From positions 1-32,895 of IMG/VR virus record IMGVR_UViG_3300042197_001709: 32,895 bases of DNA; one strand, given 5' to 3'. The translations under genes and the position numbers were made by a program. Positions 7,747-32,895 of the stretch are shown here, one piece after another (the stretch's first letter is position 1; the number at the start of each line of letters is the position of its first letter). Under the pieces are notes generated by a model. The model searched no databases, had not been told where the DNA came from, and saw nothing but the letters and a program-made list of their open reading frames with translations. Source of the stretch: a virus.

Positions 7747-9588
7747 CTAAGAGAAATTAACCGATGTTAGATTAAGAACTCTAACATTTATATCCTTATT
7801 TGGGTATCTAATCTGATATATTTGTGTTGGCGTTGCAAAAATAGTATCGGCGGTTGGTTTAATTTGTCTTGTTAGAGGATCTGAATATGCCATCGATGTT
7901 TGTGATGATGAGTATTGCCCTCCAACTTGGTTGAAGAATGAAATGTCGGAAATGCTAACGATTCCGTTTTCAGCCTGAATTAGTCTTCTCAACTCTGAAA
8001 TATTAACGTTTTGACCAAGTTCTCTAACGAGAGGATTGAAGAAGTCTCCAATAATTTGAATTGTTTTTGCAACTATCGCCCCTTGGTTTTGACTATTATC
8101 TAACACCACATCAACAATAACAGAAAGATCAATTGTTTCTGCGGCCTCAACTGAAATATAATCATTTATCATTCTATAATTTGATAAGTAATTGGCCACG
8201 TTTTGTTTTAAAGTATTAGATACGACATTTGTTAAAGTTCCGTTTGCATCATAGGACAACATTTTAATTCGTATTTTATTATTTTCTTCCGTAATTGCAA
8301 CTTTTGCTGGAGCCCCAAATTGAGCAGGCATCGTTCTCAAAATTGAATTGTAGTCATTAACGGTTACCGCTCTGTTTTGTGCCGCAAAATTAAACGACAC
8401 CAAATTTCTAACATCTTCGGTTGTCGGTGGGTTCGCTCCTCCAATTGCTGCGGTTACGTTATTACATTGTAAACTATTGATTACACTTCTATTTGCGGTT
8501 TCTGATGGTCCATTAACGGCAAATGAGACAGTCCCAATTTGGTTAATTGTATTGATTCCAATGTTACTCGCTAAACCACCACCAATTCTGTATTGAATGA
8601 ATAATGTTGTGTTAGGAGTAAGTGCCGCCCCTAATGCATAATTATTTGTGTATCTACTTAAATCGAATCCTTTACCGTCACGAGCAAATTCTCGTAATTG
8701 TTCTTCGGCCGATATATTTCCACCACCAAATGTCAATTTACAATAACTTTCAGGTGTGAATTCAGAAATGAATTTATTTGATGTTGTTATATATCTTCCT
8801 ACTTTGATTCCTGGTTGGTCTGAAACTTTGGTTGGATCCTCGATAAATACTCTATCTTGAACTAAAGCATCTACCTCATACCATCTTTCAGGTCCGATTG
8901 TTAAAAAGTCTTGGGGATTTGGAATTGTTGAGTATTGAGTTCCTGGTTTTAAAAGAACACTTGTGATTCCCAATACATTTTTTTCAGGTAAAAATAATTC
9001 AAAATATGGTTTCACGTCATTTGGTGTGATCGTTCTTTTGAATACTTTTGTTATTCCATTGACAACAACTTCTCGTTTGACGATTGTATAATTTAATAGT
9101 TTTCCACTCGAATCAAAGTTTGGTATTTTAACTCTGTTTGGTGATCCTTCAGCGTTTATTGGTGAGGCGAAATCAATATCATATACCGTTTCAAAAGGTT
9201 GTCCTCCACCATTAACTTGAGAACCTCTCCTTAACACTCCACAATATCTTAAATCCTCTCGGTCACCAAAGGCAGGAACCGTAATTGAAAAATCAATCAA
9301 AGCGACAGATGGTCTTTGACCAGGCACTTTTAGACCGTAAGTTCTTGCAATATTATATATAGAATTTTTTTGTTGAGCAAATTGTAATACGGTTTCTTGG
9401 ATACTTCTATCTATTTGATAATTGAGGTTATCCGTGACAGCAGCATTCAAATCCATCATCACTGAAAAAATTCCAGCGTCGTTAAAATTTTGAACTAAGT
9501 CTGGATAGTATGTTCTTGTAAAATTGATAAGTTCAGTTCTAACTCCCTGAAAGTCTCTTACCGTATAGGATATTTTTTTTTCTGCCAT
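7747..9588 (-). CDS. 6: Baseplate wedge protein, T4 gp6 / baseplate J family
   Basis: A 613-aa protein close to T4 gp6 in length (about 660 aa). The N-terminus (TVRDFQGVRTELINFTRTYYPD, then DAGIFSVMMDLNAAVTDNLNYQIDRS) is the usual start of gp6-like wedge proteins. Residues around 395-440 hold the well-conserved core TEDVRNLVSFNFAAQNRAVT followed by NDYNSILRTMPAQFG. In T4, gp6 forms dimers that tie the six wedges into the baseplate ring, and here it should do the same. The start ATG at 9586-9588 is six bases after the gp25 stop, the gp25-gp6 order typical of T4-like and other contractile systems. The leader is A/T-rich without a Shine-Dalgarno sequence. Confidence 0.95.
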   Translation of the reverse strand: MAEKKISYTVRDFQGVRTELINFTRTYYPDLVQNFNDAGIFSVMMDLNAAVTDNLNYQIDRSIQETVLQFAQQKNSIYNIARTYGLKVPGQRPSVALIDFSITVPAFGDREDLRYCGVLRRGSQVNGGGQPFETVYDIDFASPINAEGSPNRVKIPNFDSSGKLLNYTIVKREVVVNGITKVFKRTITPNDVKPYFELFLPEKNVLGITSVLLKPGTQYSTIPNPQDFLTIGPERWYEVDALVQDRVFIEDPTKVSDQPGIKVGRYITTSNKFISEFTPESYCKLTFGGGNISAEEQLREFARDGKGFDLSRYTNNYALGAALTPNTTLFIQYRIGGGLASNIGINTINQIGTVSFAVNGPSETANRSVINSLQCNNVTAAIGGANPPTTEDVRNLVSFNFAAQNRAVTVNDYNSILRTMPAQFGAPAKVAITEENNKIRIKMLSYDANGTLTNVVSNTLKQNVANYLSNYRMINDYISVEAAETIDLSVIVDVVLDNSQNQGAIVAKTIQIIGDFFNPLVRELGQNVNISELRRLIQAENGIVSISDISFFNQVGGQYSSSQTSMAYSDPLTRQIKPTADTIFATPTQIYQIRYPNKDINVRVLNLTSVNFS

Positions 9589-9594
9589 ATAACT

Positions 9595-10053
9595 TTAAAT
9601 ATTGATTATGACAAAATCTTGTGACTCAAAAGCCGAGTCTGTAATTCTGTAATCTATTTTTATTTTTGCGGTATGTTCCAAGTTTGCTATGTTGGTTACC
9701 CTAAATTCCCTTTCACCATATTGATTGATGGTATCTCCTTTATTTTCTAAACCTGCGGAAGCCGGTTCTACGGTGATATTTGTAACTTGTAGATTTGGCA
9801 TATAAGTTCTAATCGAATCTTGTATTTCGGATTCGATGTCTGAGAAAGTTGGTCCGTCCAAAGGTTCGAATATATACTCATATAACCTTGATCCAAAATC
9901 AGGTAAAAAATATCTACTTCCCTTTCTTGTTAAAAGTAAATGAACTAAGTTTGCCCTTATTTCCGCTTCGGTTGAGTTTGTAACATCCAAATACCTTCCA
10001 GTAAAAGAATCAACAAAGGGAAAAGAAATTCCATAAGTAATACCATTTGCCAT
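9595..10053 (-). CDS. 25: Baseplate wedge protein, T4 gp25 / GpW-gp25 family
   Basis: I place the start at ATG 10051-10053, giving 152 aa (MANGITYGISFPFVDSFTGR...). The frame is open farther upstream, but that extension would run through the terminator hairpin at 10096-10115 and encodes nothing gp25-like, so it is rejected. The protein shows the family pattern: an N-terminal F-x-D segment, a helix EAEIRANLVHLLLTRKGSR, F-L-P-D-F-G-S-R-L, and FEPLDGPTFSDIESEI, which corresponds to the conserved EPR-type core. The C-terminal beta part carries the predicted strands. T4 gp25 (132 aa) sits at the centre of the wedge and seeds sheath assembly. The gene follows a terminator by fewer than 40 bases and precedes gp6 by six bases. 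Confidence 0.93.
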   Translation of the reverse strand: MANGITYGISFPFVDSFTGRYLDVTNSTEAEIRANLVHLLLTRKGSRYFLPDFGSRLYEYIFEPLDGPTFSDIESEIQDSIRTYMPNLQVTNITVEPASAGLENKGDTINQYGEREFRVTNIANLEHTAKIKIDYRITDSAFESQDFVIINI

Positions 10054-10061
10054 ATCACATA

Positions 10062-10069
10062 TAAATATA
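10062..10069 (-). promoter_or_regulatory. Putative -10/-7 element TATATTTA before gp25
   Basis: Minus-strand TATATTTA sits eight bases before the gp25 ATG and just after the terminator of the preceding gene, so a promoter is needed about here unless readthrough drives gp25-gp6. It fits TAnnTTT of Bacteroidota promoters and repeats before three other genes, but no clear -33 TTTG is visible. A transcript from it would have almost no leader. Confidence 0.3.
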
Positions 10070-10082
10070 AGTTCAGTTTTTT

Positions 10083-10115
10083 TTAAGTAAAAAAAAATCC
10101 ACCTTATGGTGGATT
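10083..10115 (-). terminator. Rho-independent terminator after the 144-aa gene
   Basis: On the minus strand AATCCACC - ATAA - GGTGGATT forms a perfect 8-bp stem with a 4-base loop (10096-10115), followed directly by a run of T (plus-strand A at 10089-10097). It lies 24 bases after the stop of the isolated 144-aa gene and just before the gp25 leader. Confidence 0.9.
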
Positions 10116-10138
10116 CTACAAAATATATTTTTTTACAA

Positions 10139-10648
10139 TTATTTTTGAGCCGGTATAAGCGATTTAACATAAGAAACAGCGGCTTTATAGACGTCTGGAA
10201 TATCCGAACCCTGAACTCTATTTATTACTATGTTAGAATAAGATGTATCGTAGGTATAGTTTTTACCGATATTATTAACTAAGAAGTTTTGTAAAGTTCT
10301 GTCTGATGCCATAAATTGGTATTTATCTTTACCAATTGCGCGGCCAGTTGTAATGCTAGAATCACCAAGTTTTACGCTGTAAATACTTTGAGTTTGAGTT
10401 TTATATAAATCTATCGTTTCAGATGCAATATTTTCTCCTTTCCAATTTGTGATCTGAACAACAACCACCCTACTAGGATCAAATATTTCTTTTCCACTAC
10501 TATTAGTCGTCATTGGGACAGTCACTTTTACCTCAACCCAATATTTTTTACCAGTAAAATCATCTTCCATCAAATATCGTCTTTCATTAATAACTCTTCT
10601 TACAATACGAGTTAGATCTGATTCGGTTAATCTTATAATTCTTTTAAT
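10139..10648 (-). CDS. Unknown protein; coding extends upstream to a probable ATT start (170 aa)
   Basis: The first conventional start is ATG 10568-10570 (143 aa, MEDDFTGKKYWVEV...). The frame stays open 26 codons upstream of it and encodes IKRIIRLTESDLTRIVRRVI followed by NERRYL. This reads as a real, charged amphipathic N-terminal helix, not random upstream sequence. The stop before it is at 10664-10666, and the only plausible initiators are ATT codons at 10646-10648 and 10649-10651. I therefore propose ATT as the start, with lower confidence in the exact codon; TTG 10571-10573 and ATG 10570 are the fallbacks. The rest is a mixed alpha/beta protein of unknown family. The gene is alone between two terminators. 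Function unknown; it may be a virion or morphogenesis factor given the baseplate genes downstream. Confidence 0.7.
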   Translation of the reverse strand: MKRIIRLTESDLTRIVRRVINERRYLMEDDFTGKKYWVEVKVTVPMTTNSSGKEIFDPSRVVVVQITNWKGENIASETIDLYKTQTQSIYSVKLGDSSITTGRAIGKDKYQFMASDRTLQNFLVNNIGKNYTYDTSYSNIVINRVQGSDIPDVYKAAVSYVKSLIPAQK

Positions 10649-15995: not shown

Positions 15996-17006
15996 TTACT
16001 TTTTTTTGTTTCTAAATTTTTGTTTTTCTTTTCTTGTCAATTTGAGAAATGGTTTTAAAAAACTCACCCAAGCGTCGTCACCCTTCGGTAAGTATTTAAA
16101 AAACCCGTCCTCCATCATCATTCGAATTAGATTTCTATGTCCTCTTCCGTCGGGATCCATCGACTCTGAGTAATATAGTCCAACTAATTCTTTTTCCTCT
16201 TGATTTAAAAGGGGGTTATCCAAATTAACAAGTTTTTCGTTAATTACATAAAACTCATCTCCGAAAATACCCTCTTTTGTTTTCCCACTAAGTAGGTTCT
16301 GAATAGCAACGTTTCCTTTTTCTTCTTTTAAAAGTTCTTCACTCTTTTGTAAAATATATGCTAATTCAACACGTTGTTCAAGTAACTCAGGAAACATTTT
16401 AACTAAAGTTTTCTCACCAAGATAGAATATACCATCAATGTTGTCGGAACTATCACCGGTGAGAATTTTTACTGTTTTAACATTATAGTGGGGAACCTCA
16501 ATATCATGAAGCTTTATTTTGTCTCCCAACTTATAATATTGTTTTGTGGATGGTGAATAAATCGAAACTTTTTCTCCAATCAGTTGAGATAAATCTCTGT
16601 CACTAGAAAATATTGTTTTTTCTTCGTCTAAGGAAACTTTACAATACTCGGCTATTAAGTCATCAGCTTCAGCATGTTCTGTCTCTATTTGTCTTACAAA
16701 CATCTCCTCAAGGTATTGTTTAACTCTTTGTTTTTGTTCTAAAAAAGATTCTTCTTTCGATTCAGTTTCAGATGATTTTCGATTTAACTTGTACTTGGGA
16801 TAAATTAACCTCCTCTGAGCCGAGGAAGTTTTAGAGTCCCAAAGAACTAAAACTTTATTATAGTTGTGTTCTTCAAGGAATTTACGAAGAGTGTTTAGAA
16901 AGTGCCATACTCCGCCAACATGTTTTCCATTATGATAGAAATCTCTAACACCATGAAAACCAATTTTTAATAAATTATTTCCATCGACAAGTAATGTCTT
17001 ATTCAT
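15996..17006 (-). CDS. rnh: 5'-3' exonuclease, FEN/PIN family (T4 RNase H type)
   Basis: A 336-aa protein with the metal-binding acidic residues of the FEN/5'-nuclease family in order: D8 (LLVDGNNLL), D57 (LVLWDSK), E113/D115/D116 (HAEADDLIAE), D136/D138 (FSSDRDLSQL), and D185/D188 (LTGDSSDNIDGI), the last within the helix-hairpin-helix DNA-binding region. T4 RNase H (305 aa) removes RNA primers and adjacent DNA from Okazaki fragments, which fits the position near uvsX and the helicase. The C-terminus is strongly basic (LTRKEKQKFRNKKK). The ATG at 17004-17006 lies inside the last codons of the HNH gene, an 8-base overlap, so the homing cassette ends exactly at this gene's start. Confidence 0.92.
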   Translation of the reverse strand: MNKTLLVDGNNLLKIGFHGVRDFYHNGKHVGGVWHFLNTLRKFLEEHNYNKVLVLWDSKTSSAQRRLIYPKYKLNRKSSETESKEESFLEQKQRVKQYLEEMFVRQIETEHAEADDLIAEYCKVSLDEEKTIFSSDRDLSQLIGEKVSIYSPSTKQYYKLGDKIKLHDIEVPHYNVKTVKILTGDSSDNIDGIFYLGEKTLVKMFPELLEQRVELAYILQKSEELLKEEKGNVAIQNLLSGKTKEGIFGDEFYVINEKLVNLDNPLLNQEEKELVGLYYSESMDPDGRGHRNLIRMMMEDGFFKYLPKGDDAWVSFLKPFLKLTRKEKQKFRNKKK

Positions 17007-17595
17007 TTATTATACCATTAGATGGTTCAACAATTTTGTTTCCTTTTTTCATATTTTCAACAGCCCACAGAGGTTGTAAATTAGTATAATGACATAACTT
17101 GTAAAGTTCTTCTTCTGTCTTTGCCGATGACAAAGGAATTATATGATCTATATGCCACTCTACTCTGTTTTCCCAAGTCATACCGTTACTAAATTGTTTT
17201 TCTAAATGTTCTTTAAGTTCTTGAGGTGTACATCCAACAATATCTAAAGTTCTGTTTTTTTTTGTAATATTATTAATAGTTAAATACTTCCATATTCTAC
17301 ATCTGACTCTGTTAACTAAATTAAAAATAACATCACTATTTCGTCGTTCTTTTCTTTGTTCATGCTTTCTATTTTTGTAATTTTTACGGTATTCTTGTCT
17401 TTTTTCGGGATTCTTTTCATAAAACTTTTTCAATTTTTCTTTTGTAAGTGTTGGGTTGGTAAACCTTATATTTTCTTCATATTGTTTTGAACATGTTTTA
17501 CAACTAGATCTTAATCCATCTTTCTTCGTTCTATCATTCCGAAACTCTGTTTTGTTTTGTTCAAGATTACATTTACTACAAATTTTTGTTTCCAT
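16999..17595 (-). CDS. HNH homing-type endonuclease with zinc-binding N-terminus
   Basis: A 198-aa free-standing HNH endonuclease. The N-terminus has a four-cysteine zinc motif, C6-x2-C9 and C32-x2-C35 (CSKCNLEQNKTEFRNDRTKK, then SSCKTC). The middle (residues 45-100) is a very basic helical linker likely to contact DNA. The HNH/His-Me finger is at 145-187: EWHIDHIIPLSSA (H148, D150, H151), then CHYTNLQPLWAVENMKKGNK with N172 and N181. The fold is expected to make a site-specific nick or break that drives spread into related phages. It overlaps the RHH gene upstream by 20 bases and the exonuclease downstream by 8 bases, and interrupts the otherwise functional uvsX-exonuclease series, as expected for a mobile gene. 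All catalytic residues are present. Confidence 0.93.
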   Translation of the reverse strand: METKICSKCNLEQNKTEFRNDRTKKDGLRSSCKTCSKQYEENIRFTNPTLTKEKLKKFYEKNPEKRQEYRKNYKNRKHEQRKERRNSDVIFNLVNRVRCRIWKYLTINNITKKNRTLDIVGCTPQELKEHLEKQFSNGMTWENRVEWHIDHIIPLSSAKTEEELYKLCHYTNLQPLWAVENMKKGNKIVEPSNGIINE

Positions 17596-19043: not shown

Positions 19044-19733
19044 TTATAAAGGGGTTTTTTCAAGTATTTGTTGATAATAATTGTTTAAAAATTTTGGTTG
19101 AAGTTCAAGGTTTCCGGTGCTGTGCCTTGTCATGGTATCAACCTTTTCGTACATAAGTTTAGTGTCTATGTTTCCCATTCCTGACACATGGTATGTTGAC
19201 ATGCCCCACCTATATATCATTGTGATTTTATCATTACTTTCAAATATTTTGGCACTTGTTTTATATGTGATATCAAAATCTTCACCAAATGAACTATCCG
19301 GAAATGTTATTCTATTTATGTATTTTTTTGAATATACATTTCCATTATTAACATTACCACTTATTTTTTCAAATTTGTTATGTAAAAAGAAATAATGTGT
19401 TTTTGGTCTGTAGATTTCAAATCCAGGATTTTCCAAAATAAATTTTTCTGAAATATCCAAAGCGTCAGGACCTAAAAGATCATCATCATCTAATCGATAT
19501 ATGTAATCATATTTACATTGTCTAAACCCAAACTCTAATTTTTTAGATATACTTGAAAATCTTTCTTTGATGTTAAAAACTTTTACCTGTGGGTGATCAA
19601 AAACATAATGACTATTTGGGCTATCGTTTATGATAACCATTTCACTATTTTTTTTATTTTGAAGAAGAAATGATTGTATGGCTTCTTCTAAAATATGTGG
19701 TCTTTGGTACGTTAATGTTAATACTGATATCAT
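19044..19733 (-). CDS. GT-A fold glycosyltransferase, family 2-like
   Basis: A 229-aa glycosyltransferase. The N-terminus ISVLTLTYQRPHILEEAIQS is the classic GT2 nucleotide-binding start. IINDSP (34-39) carries the first conserved Asp, and YRLDDDDLLGPDAL (79-92) has the DxD-type metal-binding motif as four aspartates. FGEDFD (149-154) is in place of the catalytic ED, and TYHVSGMGN (180-188) supplies the late His. It would transfer a sugar from a nucleotide-sugar donor; the acceptor cannot be read from sequence and could be phage DNA bases, a virion protein or a host glycan. The ATG at 19731-19733 is only about ten bases beyond the hairpin of the gp32 terminator, so expression must depend on readthrough or a promoter within gp32. 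It has no membrane anchor. Confidence 0.87.
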   Translation of the reverse strand: MISVLTLTYQRPHILEEAIQSFLLQNKKNSEMVIINDSPNSHYVFDHPQVKVFNIKERFSSISKKLEFGFRQCKYDYIYRLDDDDLLGPDALDISEKFILENPGFEIYRPKTHYFFLHNKFEKISGNVNNGNVYSKKYINRITFPDSSFGEDFDITYKTSAKIFESNDKITMIYRWGMSTYHVSGMGNIDTKLMYEKVDTMTRHSTGNLELQPKFLNNYYQQILEKTPL

Positions 19734-28513: not shown

Positions 28514-31500
28514 TTATAAAAATGTTACTTTACCATTAAAGGTTTTTTTATTGTTGTTTGTATTAAATGTCGAATAAGTCTTTTTCAATAGTTTTCTATT
28601 ATCTTTCGTAGTACTATTTTCTTCGGTTGTATAATATAATTTAGAGTCAAACGTTTCATTTTTATATTTTTTGAATTTTTCGTACTCTGGTGTTTTTTCA
28701 TACTTATCAAAAATTTCTTTTTCTAATTTATATTCTCTGTTAAAATTAATTTTCAATTGTTCGCAAGTTGCTTTAATTAAGTTAACAAGATCTGTATTTC
28801 CTTCAACTTTTTCAGTTAATAACTTATCCACAAAAGAATTATATTTATCATCGTTTGTAAATGTTTGTGACATTGTCATAAAAAATCTTCTTGATGGGTC
28901 ATCTTGATAAAATAAAGTTGTTTGAGGCTGGAATGAAATCCCTTGATCTAATAAAATATCAGGATACAATATTTTATTTTCCAATATACTTTTATTATAT
29001 AGTGTTATAGCGCTTGCGGTTTCTCCTGGGTATATTCTTATCATGTTTTCAAAAACATTTGTTGATCCAGGAATGAGTTCCAAATTATAAACAACATATT
29101 CACCAGTTTCTTTCTTATAACCATCAACTTTATTTATAACCAAATCCAATTCTTTAAATGTTTGTATATAATCTTCTTGATATTTTACCATTTCATTTAT
29201 TGGTCCAGTAACCGCCTGATCTATTTCAGATTCTTGATTTAAAATTATATCAAACAATACGTTTTGGACATCACGTTTTGTAGATTTTGACCATTCATTA
29301 TTACTATTTTCAATTGCCTTTATTATTGGATTGTCTTTGTTTGTTACGTCCTTTAAAGCTTCTTTAAATAATTTTCTTATACTTCCTTGATAATCGTCTG
29401 GTTTTCCAATAATTTCTATTTTATCAGCGTTAGTTTGATTATCATTAAGTTCTCCATCTTTATAGTTTCTTTTATCAAGAACCAATTGAGTCATTGGGTA
29501 ATTAGTAACCTCATACAATTTTTTAATTTGATTAAACATTGTTGTGAAATAATTGTTTGTCTTTGTTGAAAGTTCTTCAAATATTCCATTAAATTCTGTT
29601 TCTCCGGTTAATATTTTACCATCATCATAATACTCCGTTGTTAAAATGTTACCAATTGTTGATCCTCCTTTTTCTCCAGCTTCTTGGTTGTTTATTGGTG
29701 CCGGGTTTGATATACCATTATTTGTTTTACCAAACAATTTAGATACCATTTCTTCATCTCTTTCTTTTGTACTTTCAGTTGCAACCGCTCTTTCGTCGTA
29801 AATTTCTGTATTTGCGTAGTAGTTAAATGACAATGCATTTTGGAGTTGTGATACGGGTCCTGCTAAACCATGACCACCTATAAAATCAAAACCTAATGTA
29901 ATTTTTGCCAACATTGGTTGGACTCCAATTCCTTCTGGATTAATATCATATAATAAAGGCTCATAACTTATAGATAACTGATTTGGTACTATTTTAGTAT
30001 GATAAAAGTCGCCAACTCTTAAAACAAGAATTGGTGGTGTACCAAATGATGTATTTCTAGCGTCATTATATTTTGGTTTACCATCAACGCCAATTACTGG
30101 TATTGTTTGCCCTGGCCTAACACATTGATTCAAAAATGTTAGTCTTGCGTTTAATCCTTCTGGTGTTATTGAATGGAAAGTTGGGTTAAAATATTTAACT
30201 TTATCTTTAATACTTGCATAAACAGTTGGGTTCGTTTCTTTTATAACTTCAAAATAATCACATTCAGAAAAAAGTTTTCGTAGTATTTTTTTTGATATTC
30301 CTTCTTTAATTGTTTTTTTTATATCAATTACCGGATCTGGATCTGGATCTGGATTTGGTTCTGGGGAACAACCAGCGTCAATACAGGCCTGTTCTGTGTC
30401 AAATGTACCTTTTGCAGACTGTTGGCATTTACCGTCAATACACTCATACTTGGTGGATATCTGTCCACAATTTTTATCACACTCCTCTTGAGTGGTATAA
30501 TCACCAGTTCCGTCAGCAACTTTTTGACATTGACCTGGAGTTACACATTTGAAATTTTTTAATTGTTCGTTTCTTTTACACCCTCCTTGTTCTGGTGGTG
30601 CGTTTTCGCATTCACTTTTACTTTTAAAAGTTCCATTTTTGCTATCCTGAACACACTTACCATCATTATTATCACCACATTTCCATTTTGGTTCTTTAGC
30701 ATTTGATAGTCTAATTTTTGCAAATGCAACTCTTCTACATGCCATTGCTGGTATACTATACCATTGCGAATTATTTGTTACTTTATTTAATTTCACATCA
30801 ACAATGTCTTTAGTGCATTCAATCGGGCTAGACAAACTGTAATTTTGATCTACTGATTCGACTTGAGTATTTCCTTCTGAAGAAACTAAATCTCCATATT
30901 TTGGTATAACGGCCTTCTCACCATCCGCTCTGAATGTGATAATAAGTTTAGCTTCATCTCTCCATTGTTTGACAGTTTTATCACCAATTTTTTGTGTATT
31001 CAACCAATTTTCTACAGTGCTATTTCTTCTTTTAGATAAGTTTACGTTGTAATTTACTTTTGCCGGTGCAGACGCAGAACCTATCATTTCAAGTGTGACT
31101 GTGGCTTCTAAATCGACAAGAGCCTTTTTAAGTACTTTAGGTATAAAATCATTTTGTATTGTTACAAAATTACCAATGATAACATCATCAAAAAATTCGC
31201 TAATACCGTCACTTGTAAATTTTTCATTACCAACGGCAACTTCAAGAGGTGCGGCAGTGCTTTCATATATCGACCTTCTACCGAGATATTGCGAATACCA
31301 TTCTGTAAATGGACTTGGTACCGACGTTAAATTCGAAGATTCGCCAATTGGATAGTCGTTATCAAAATAAAATCCAAAACCAATATATGAATTTAATTCA
31401 CCTTCTAATGACGTAATACTTAAATCAGACTCATTTGTAGTGTTATTACCTTGGTTTCCTGATCCATTTCCATTTCCATTACCTGTATTTGAGTTATTTT

Positions 31501-32895
31501 CTGTTGTGTTTGCTCCACCTTGTGATGGTGTTTGAAAAACTCCTAGGTCATTTAAAATTGCCGAAGTTTCTTCTTGTGATAAATTTGGATTTTGTAAAAG
31601 TTCTTGATAGGTGTAAAGTTCGCTTTGAGATAACTGATTATATTTTAATCCCAAGGTATATAAGTCATACTTAATACATCCCGCAAAAAATGAGTCCATA
31701 ATTGAGTCAACTTGTTCTTGAGACATATTTGCCAATTGTTTTTCTATGATTGTATTCATAGCCGCAGGATGGTCAACGACAACAGTCCAATTTAAACTTC
31801 CGGATCTATTTGTGTTTTTATATGTAAAAATTGGTTCAGGTCTTCCAAGAAAAGAAGTTGAATTCCAAGAAGCTGTTGATGAATCACTAAACTTTAAATC
31901 ATATGGTGGAAACCACATAATTCTACCTCCATTTGGTCCTTTTTCACATGCCGGTAAATCATCATACGTATATCCTGGTTCACTAGACGTTCTCCAAGCA
32001 AGATTTTCTAATGAAAACATATATTTTTTTACTTTCCCATCAATAATATTAGTTGATCCTGGGTTTCTTAAGGGTGCAATATTTAAATTGTATGTATTAT
32101 CAAAAATAGAATAACTAAACTTCCTACCTGATGTTGTTATTCCATCCGTTTTTTGTAAATCAGCATATGTTAGGTAAGGTGTGTCTTTTTGAAAAACTCT
32201 ACAATATTCCGCACCTACTTCAGTTCCATCAATACTCATTGTTTCAGAGTTTGTAATACTGTCGTAATATGCAACTACTCTGGATCCTTTTGTTAGTTCT
32301 TTATATCCGTCGTTGAAAACTTTGGAGACTTGATTAATTGCATTTCCAACATGTTGTAGTCGTTTTGCTCCTGTTACATTATCCGCAGATTGAATTAATC
32401 TTTGTGTGTTGTCCAATATTGACCCACCTTTGAACTCAAATTGCGTTGAGTCTGTATCTTCGTTAAACTCTCCTGAAACAACATCGTATTCGGCATCTTG
32501 TGGTTTTACAATATCTCCACCTGGCTTAACTTTGAATCCTAAATTATCTTTATACTTTGGTGACAACCATACAAATTGTCCGGCAATTCCACCTAAATTT
32601 GTGTAAGATTTACCCGCCAGACCAAATTTGATTTTGTCAATATTTCCTTCGTAAAGTTGAGCAAGTTCATTTGGACCATAGACAGGTGATGGTTGTTGTT
32701 TACCAAATCTATCAACAGGTATTTGATTGTCTGGAGTGTTGATTGTCGATGGTTCAGATTGATCACTACCTACATAGTAACCACCACCTTGCGTTGTATT
32801 GTTACCAAGTAAATTATTGATTGCTGTTGTTACACCTAACAATAATCCTTTTTCATATTTAGGACGATAAACATTATAATCTAAACTTTTAAATA
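28514..32895 (-). CDS. Giant baseplate/tail protein with OmpA-like domain and Cys-rich repeats, 5' end cut by window edge
   Basis: The frame is open to the right edge. The codons before the first possible start (TTG 32840-32842) read FKSLDYNVYRPKYEKGLL without a stop, so the true start is outside the window. Residues below are counted from that TTG. Residues 280-360 hold FLGRPEPIFTYKNTNRSGSL, NWTVVVDHP, as in other large T4-like baseplate proteins. Residues 437-475 are an Asn/Gly-rich linker. Residues 487-712 resemble the OmpA C-terminal domain: FYFDND, LEMIGSASAP, YNVNLSKRRNSTVENWL, ACRRVAFAKI. Residues 721-825 are three cysteine-rich repeats, then a Pro-Asp linker. The rest includes LRVGDFYHTKIVPNQLSISY and FDFIGGHGLAGPVSQLQNAL, like tube- or hub-binding proteins of contractile systems. 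It precedes gp53 by five bases. Role inferred: baseplate protein that engages the host cell wall. Confidence 0.87.
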   Translation of the reverse strand, partial: FKSLDYNVYRPKYEKGLLLGVTTAINNLLGNNTTQGGGYYVGSDQSEPSTINTPDNQIPVDRFGKQQPSPVYGPNELAQLYEGNIDKIKFGLAGKSYTNLGGIAGQFVWLSPKYKDNLGFKVKPGGDIVKPQDAEYDVVSGEFNEDTDSTQFEFKGGSILDNTQRLIQSADNVTGAKRLQHVGNAINQVSKVFNDGYKELTKGSRVVAYYDSITNSETMSIDGTEVGAEYCRVFQKDTPYLTYADLQKTDGITTSGRKFSYSIFDNTYNLNIAPLRNPGSTNIIDGKVKKYMFSLENLAWRTSSEPGYTYDDLPACEKGPNGGRIMWFPPYDLKFSDSSTASWNSTSFLGRPEPIFTYKNTNRSGSLNWTVVVDHPAAMNTIIEKQLANMSQEQVDSIMDSFFAGCIKYDLYTLGLKYNQLSQSELYTYQELLQNPNLSQEETSAILNDLGVFQTPSQGGANTTENNSNTGNGNGNGSGNQGNNTTNESDLSITSLEGELNSYIGFGFYFDNDYPIGESSNLTSVPSPFTEWYSQYLGRRSIYESTAAPLEVAVGNEKFTSDGISEFFDDVIIGNFVTIQNDFIPKVLKKALVDLEATVTLEMIGSASAPAKVNYNVNLSKRRNSTVENWLNTQKIGDKTVKQWRDEAKLIITFRADGEKAVIPKYGDLVSSEGNTQVESVDQNYSLSSPIECTKDIVDVKLNKVTNNSQWYSIPAMACRRVAFAKIRLSNAKEPKWKCGDNNDGKCVQDSKNGTFKSKSECENAPPEQGGCKRNEQLKNFKCVTPGQCQKVADGTGDYTTQEECDKNCGQISTKYECIDGKCQQSAKGTFDTEQACIDAGCSPEPNPDPDPDPVIDIKKTIKEGISKKILRKLFSECDYFEVIKETNPTVYASIKDKVKYFNPTFHSITPEGLNARLTFLNQCVRPGQTIPVIGVDGKPKYNDARNTSFGTPPILVLRVGDFYHTKIVPNQLSISYEPLLYDINPEGIGVQPMLAKITLGFDFIGGHGLAGPVSQLQNALSFNYYANTEIYDERAVATESTKERDEEMVSKLFGKTNNGISNPAPINNQEAGEKGGSTIGNILTTEYYDDGKILTGETEFNGIFEELSTKTNNYFTTMFNQIKKLYEVTNYPMTQLVLDKRNYKDGELNDNQTNADKIEIIGKPDDYQGSIRKLFKEALKDVTNKDNPIIKAIENSNNEWSKSTKRDVQNVLFDIILNQESEIDQAVTGPINEMVKYQEDYIQTFKELDLVINKVDGYKKETGEYVVYNLELIPGSTNVFENMIRIYPGETASAITLYNKSILENKILYPDILLDQGISFQPQTTLFYQDDPSRRFFMTMSQTFTNDDKYNSFVDKLLTEKVEGNTDLVNLIKATCEQLKINFNREYKLEKEIFDKYEKTPEYEKFKKYKNETFDSKLYYTTEENSTTKDNRKLLKKTYSTFNTNNNKKTFNGKVTFL
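30333..30356. repeat. Hexamer tandem repeat (GGATCT x3 + GGATTT) encoding a Pro-Asp linker
   Basis: Four tandem copies of a hexamer, the last with one change, inside the large OmpA-domain gene. On the coding strand they encode alternating Asp and Pro within PEPNPDPDPDPVID, a stiff spacer between the cysteine-rich repeats and the C-terminal part. Such repeats can change length by slippage in whole-codon steps. Confidence 0.85.
30368..30682 (-). repeat. Three tandem cysteine-rich protein repeats inside the large baseplate gene
   Basis: Residues 721-825 (counted from TTG 32842) contain three degenerate repeats of 27-36 residues, each with four cysteines: C722/C730/C745/C755, C766/C772/C788/C792 and C801/C806/C820/C825. 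The pattern is C-x(4-7)-C-x(13-15)-C-x(3-9)-C with a G-[TD]-[FY]-x-[ST/K] step before the third cysteine (NGTFKSKSEC, TGDYTTQEEC, KGTFDTEQAC). The even number of cysteines suggests small disulfide-bonded knots. Confidence 0.8.

Follow-up and report, generated by a model that had tools for sequence, protein, structure and literature searches.

The baseplate centrepiece of Milano and of pyocin joins the tube to the hub and has a helical 'glue' domain that lies between the wedges; the moving tube of pyocin carries it out of the baseplate (PMC10811340). The LysM domains of T4 gp53, A-1(L) gp16 and Milano gp25 are packed within the baseplate (PMC10966104, PMC10811340): in A-1(L) the domain is encircled by the wedge, the sheath initiators and the tube initiator (PMC10966104), and in Milano and PVC it is carried by the centrepiece itself (PMC10811340). 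Since LysM is packed inside solved baseplates, a wall-binding fold in this position can be purely structural.

The TagL/TssL anchors of type VI systems likewise put an OmpA-like domain to the service of a contractile machine. The diaminopimelate pocket of TagL consists of Asp486, Asn494, Leu497 and Arg501 (PMC8253398) and that of A. baumannii OmpA includes D271 and R286 (PMC6572160); in each protein it is the Asp that contacts diaminopimelate. The pocket Asn, Leu and Arg are also conserved in the domain described here. TagL, however, keeps the Asp and is a protein of its own in the inner membrane, whereas the present domain forms part of the phage particle.

The window, that is, the whole stretch of DNA analysed, comprises 32,895 nt (positions 1 to 32,895 of IMG/VR record IMGVR_UViG_3300042197_001709). 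A word search of open-access text found no published description of a phage baseplate with an OmpA-like domain, although phage proteins annotated OmpA-like do exist.

Gene neighbourhood

The gene of interest (Table 1) has an open 5′ end, and comparison with full-length homologues of 1,600–1,790 aa places ∼330 N-terminal residues of its product outside the window. Residues are numbered here along the 1459-aa frame; the range 487–712 given in the preliminary description was counted from a TTG at 32842, 17 residues later.

Table 1. Features of the window discussed in the text.
Feature	Coordinates	Strand	Basis
Baseplate centrepiece-like protein, 5′-truncated (1459 of about 1,790 aa)	28514..32893	-	Frame; full-length homologues
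First half of the insert's host domain, residues 310-437	31583..31966	-	hhalign E 3e-9
OmpA-like domain, residues 495-738	30680..31411	-	PF00691; homologue profile vs PDB; AlphaFold2 model; structure alignment
FYFDND, residues 508-513, first strand of the OmpA-like fold	31355..31372	-	
GSAS, residues 605-608; Ser608 (31070-31072) at the place of the diaminopimelate-binding Asp	31070..31081	-	Ungapped alignment to OmpA-family chains
YNVNLSKRR, residues 615-623; Asn616, Leu619, Ser620, Arg623 spaced as TagL Asn494, Leu497, Ser498, Arg501	31025..31051	-	Alignment; PMC8253398
Two-cysteine stretch: Cys693 (30815-30817), Cys719 (30737-30739)	30737..30817	-	
Cys-rich repeat block, residues 736-850, from OmpA-like domain to conserved C-terminal part	30344..30688	-	Sequence
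Probable second half of host domain, residues 935-1035	29789..30091	-	hhalign P 0.012
LysM / gp53-like baseplate protein, 107 aa	28185..28508	-	Phage_tail_X 0.0013 (below cut-off); PHROG 7145 baseplate wedge 3.6e-5
Probable baseplate hub protein, 2168 aa	21689..28195	-	Position
gp25-like baseplate wedge protein	9595..10170	-	PHROG 261, 3e-17
gp6-like baseplate wedge protein	7747..9588	-	PHROG 219, 1.9e-19

In the homologous locus L003 (genes named from sequence and synteny), sheath and tube, each followed by an unknown gene, precede the probable tape measure, after which come the OmpA-carrying protein, the LysM protein and a 2165-aa protein. The arrangement is strongly kept: the LysM ORF lies directly downstream of the OmpA-carrying gene in all 254 assessable loci and, where there is enough sequence, tube and sheath genes lie upstream (52 and 48 of 54 loci, respectively). 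The baseplate context next to gp53 that had been proposed from the window is supported. The same description had called the 2168-aa neighbour a 'hub hydrolase', a label behind which we found no meaningful Pfam or PHROG match. In Flavobacterium phage immuto a 938-aa protein annotated as a carboxypeptidase occupies the corresponding place.

Lying between tape measure and LysM/hub genes, the OmpA-carrying protein holds the place of a baseplate centrepiece. Like the centrepieces of Milano, pyocin and eCIS with their LysM (BW4) partner, it follows the tape measure, adjoins LysM and precedes the hub (PMC10811340). The likeness shown here is one of gene order rather than of sequence. The present protein is far larger (∼1,790 aa) and has the OmpA-like insert and variable linkers, and its LysM partner is a separate ORF rather than a C-terminal domain as in Milano and PVC (PMC10811340). 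We infer from gene order, together with half a domain (see below), that the protein is the centrepiece.

The window also encodes a ribonucleotide reductase pair, a DnaB-like helicase, a UvsX-like recombinase and a single-strand-binding protein. An HNH/endonuclease VII-like ORF (16999–17595, minus strand) overlaps the start of an exonuclease gene and is a possible homing endonuclease. Between the uvsX-like and single-strand-binding-protein genes, a 229-aa protein without a PHROG match (19044–19733, minus strand) reads like a family 2 glycosyltransferase.

An OmpA-like domain

All four motifs on which the preliminary description had based an OmpA C-terminal domain were found, and in the expected order: FYFDND from residue 508, LEMIGSASAP from 601, YNVNLSKRRNSTV from 615 and ACRRVAF from 718. 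For the lone window sequence the Pfam evidence falls under the cut-offs: hmmscan of the whole protein gave no OmpA match, the isolated domain reached 0.041 against PF00691 (under the gathering score), and the match at 30971–31096 has an E-value of 2.8e-4 for the window record (under the curated cut-off). Among 31 diverse homologues, 27 match Pfam OmpA (best 1e-5). OmpA-family chains head the list (6e-6) when a profile of the 31 domains is compared with the PDB, and every chain below 1e-3 is of the OmpA/Pal/YfiB type.

Structure prediction, which had been named as a check, agrees. The AlphaFold2 model of the domain (pLDDT 88.5, pTM 0.87) has the beta-alpha-beta-alpha-beta-beta fold of OmpA, and VIA-align 2 aligns it best to OmpA-like structures, with Z-scores of 8.4 for both PorE (136 residues, 3.5 Å) and Pal (118 residues, 2.7 Å) and a match list that is of the OmpA/Pal/MotB type throughout. 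Foldseek searches of the PDB returned weak E-values (0.05 at best), yet the top matches are OmpA-like; two long insertions in the domain are perhaps responsible for the weakness.

The sub-threshold Pfam scores of the window sequence and the weak Foldseek E-values are what would be seen if the likeness were a chance or convergent motif in a domain unrelated to OmpA. That reading is hardly credible: it is opposed by the matches in 27 of 31 homologues, by the OmpA-family chains that fill the top of the PDB list and by the OmpA/Pal/MotB-type rows of the structure alignment. Residues 495–738 are an OmpA-like domain, with similarity beyond chance, and the fold claimed for this baseplate protein stands.

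With the PF00691 domains of OmpA, Pal, MotB, TagL and PorE it shares the fold, the order of strands and helices, the YN-x2-LS-x2-R signature with TagL spacing and the closing RRV. It differs from them in a Ser at the pocket Asp, two fixed cysteines, an extra ∼45 residues that separate the first strand from the first helix, a long insertion before the last strand, and its placement in a phage baseplate protein.

PHROG 7897, to which no function is assigned there, matches 24 of the 31 domains (best 2.7e-5); a check of records showed that it also matches in ordinary bacterial genomes, so that it is probably a general OmpA-like family. BFVD contains one clear match, the uncharacterised uncultured-phage protein A0A6J5L6C4_2 (E 1.9e-6), and phage proteins there that are annotated OmpA, for example that of Cellulophaga phi17:2, match weakly. 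A search of plasmids returned nothing besides a weak Acinetobacter OmpA (E 8).

A changed diaminopimelate pocket

The GxTD loop and the helix align with OmpA-family chains without an intervening gap, which places Ser608 at the position of the Asp and identifies Asn616, Leu619 and Arg623 as the other pocket residues; their spacing from Ser608 (+8, +11 and +15) is that of TagL. An ASPEG loop that has this Ser may occur in some Bacteroidota OmpA proteins; searching the PDB with a peptide of that kind gave mostly OmpA-family matches, and the top alignments listed have Asp.

The change extends to most of the family. Across 167 distinct homologues the Asp position is Ser in 150, Asn in three and Asp in two, and the pocket motif, kept in 155, is missing from 12. 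Among Ser-type members Asn616, Leu619, Ser620 and Arg623 are nearly fixed; Asn616, Arg623, Cys693 and Cys719 are present in 150/150, the fixation of Asn and Arg being partly by construction, as both belong to the pattern that defines the set. Two details read from the window alone, GSAS in place of the usual GxTD and retention of the Arg of LS-x2-R, are borne out. Judged by the features that mark peptidoglycan binding in OmpA/Pal/MotB, the pocket Asn, Leu and Arg are present and the diaminopimelate-contacting Asp is absent.

The history of the pocket was read from a FastTree phylogeny built on the conserved flanks of the domain. The two Asp-type members (L154 and L164, both GQTD) form one clade on a long branch, with weak support for its placement near the root. 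Loss of the pocket motif requires four changes, three of them forced by well-supported branches. All 12 motif-less members keep the insert; the domain profile still matches seven of them at E <1e-7 and does not match the other five. In L202 the stretch NPTSNSSLSKRRIESVK occurs twice in tandem near the YN-LS-RR motif, a local duplication of the pocket helix.

These observations bear on the proposal that the baseplate docks on peptidoglycan by way of this domain. Binding through a changed pocket, either as the baseplate settles or once the centrepiece has been expelled together with the tube, would help to anchor or orient the tail. The OmpA-like fold speaks for such binding, as do the retention of the pocket Asn, Leu and Arg with the spacing seen in TagL (PMC8253398), the near fixation of Asn, Leu, Ser and Arg, and the GQTD of the Asp-type pair; moreover, the pyocin tube extrudes its centrepiece (PMC10811340), which could bring a domain of this kind to the cell wall. 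Against it are the Ser that replaces the amine-contacting Asp in 150 of 167 homologues, the roughly four independent losses of the motif with the insert retained, and the structural precedent of a peptidoglycan-type LysM fold packed inside solved baseplates (PMC10966104). Given the changed Asp and the pocket losses, peptidoglycan docking is not well supported, and we consider it unlikely. A variant, in which the insert is a wall-contact device freed with the tube on the centrepiece, its Ser-type pocket fitting some form of peptidoglycan and signalling arrival of the tail at the wall or holding it there, seems to us quite unlikely.

Probable insertion into a core domain

Flavobacterium phage immuto and Microcystis phage Mel-JY01 share the gene order sheath, tube-type protein, tape measure, large protein (716 aa, immuto35A_235, in immuto; 2255 aa, WWT39329.1, in Mel-JY01) and small protein, and the small protein of immuto matches the same baseplate-wedge PHROG as the LysM/gp53-like protein of the window. 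The large proteins resemble ours in syntenic position and in a homologous 54-residue stretch: the family profile matches a short stretch in each (hhalign E 3e-9), corresponding to window residues ∼333–386. The huge phage LR756508, also uncultured, encodes a relative of this stretch as well, and there too a small protein (102 aa) comes next. The immuto and Mel-JY01 proteins differ from ours in that no OmpA domain was detected in either; the loop at the OmpA site is probably short there, about 10–20 residues.

The part beyond this loop shows a weak alignment (P 0.012; two of 150 column shuffles score as high), in the register expected, to the conserved stretch on the C-terminal side of the OmpA insert. 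Most likely, then, the OmpA domain has been inserted into a loop of a single core domain, a reading with good support on one side of the insert and no more than suggestive evidence on the other. Searches of the PDB, Pfam and PHROG with the core domain of the cultured relatives gave nothing significant. Profile comparison of the core domain with tube proteins gave no signal above shuffles. In a model of residues 1–1130 together, the flanks remain below pLDDT 50. The weak match of the second half and the missing sequence similarity to tube proteins weaken the reading of the protein as a centrepiece, and with the flanks modelled so poorly the model gives no view of the domain's position in the baseplate.

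Linkers and cysteines

Cys719 stands just ahead of the closing RRV, and a disulphide Cys693–Cys719 is possible in Ser-type domains; the Milano baseplate provides a precedent for such bonds. After the OmpA-like domain the window protein has repeats of the form YxCxxGxCxxxxxGxFxTxxxCxxxC. The longer Cys-rich linker is confined to the window and its closest relatives (L002–L006), other members having Pro- or Thr-rich linkers of different lengths.

The strong variation of this adjoining linker, in length and content, is compatible with a receptor- or envelope-sensing module in which the domain would attach to a protein of the host envelope, much as Pal binds TolB and YfiB binds YfiR. OmpA-like domains do bind proteins as well, and TolB/Pal and YfiB/YfiR entries are among the matches. 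The ligand pocket and buried strands are, however, among the most conserved residues, and the gene order is that of a baseplate core, not of fibres; we hold envelope-protein docking to be quite unlikely.

Distribution and host

None of the 167 distinct homologues examined lacks the insert: the interval from position 440 to position 860 holds at least 231 residues in each. Each of four scans of IMG/VR gave at least 480–600 confirmed stretches, some on contigs of up to 308 kb. By contrast, tblastn with the whole protein and with the domain found no relative among the 50,697 phage records of INPHARED, and two short-pattern scans of GTDB genomes, which do not amount to proof of absence, also found none. 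The phages carrying this domain are a widespread, uncultured, contractile-tailed group.

Judged by the recombinase, Flavobacterium phages (42% identity) are the closest relatives in culture, so that a Bacteroidota host is plausible, while the wedge protein stands equally close to a phage of Microcystis. Of the earlier assignment to Bacteroidota, what stands is that a Flavobacterium phage is among the distant cultured relatives, the affiliation itself being drawn from such likeness.

Discussion

We favor the view, with a probability of roughly 0.57, that the protein is a centrepiece whose OmpA-like loop insert serves, within the baseplate, for docking or as glue. The domain, inserted into a loop of the conserved core domain of this tube-to-hub connector, would fasten the centrepiece to the wedge, by analogy with the LysM domain and the helical 'ripcord' domain of solved baseplates. 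Since the pocket is otherwise fixed, its common form probably still binds something: where diaminopimelate would offer a free amine and a carboxylate, the altered pocket may instead accept a carboxylate from a partner protein next to it in the baseplate. The near fixation of Asn616, Leu619, Ser620 and Arg623 also points to a conserved ligand and not to a passive scaffold, and to that extent weighs against a structural role. Taken together, a structural or protein-docking role is likelier than plain peptidoglycan docking.

LysM is the wall-binding fold known to be reused in contractile baseplates; the OmpA-like domain would add another such fold, this one set into the machine's core. With one pocket residue changed and the rest fixed, what a Ser-type OmpA domain binds is directly testable. 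If the domain did prove to bind peptidoglycan, phage tails would have a wall anchor of their own, as type VI systems do.
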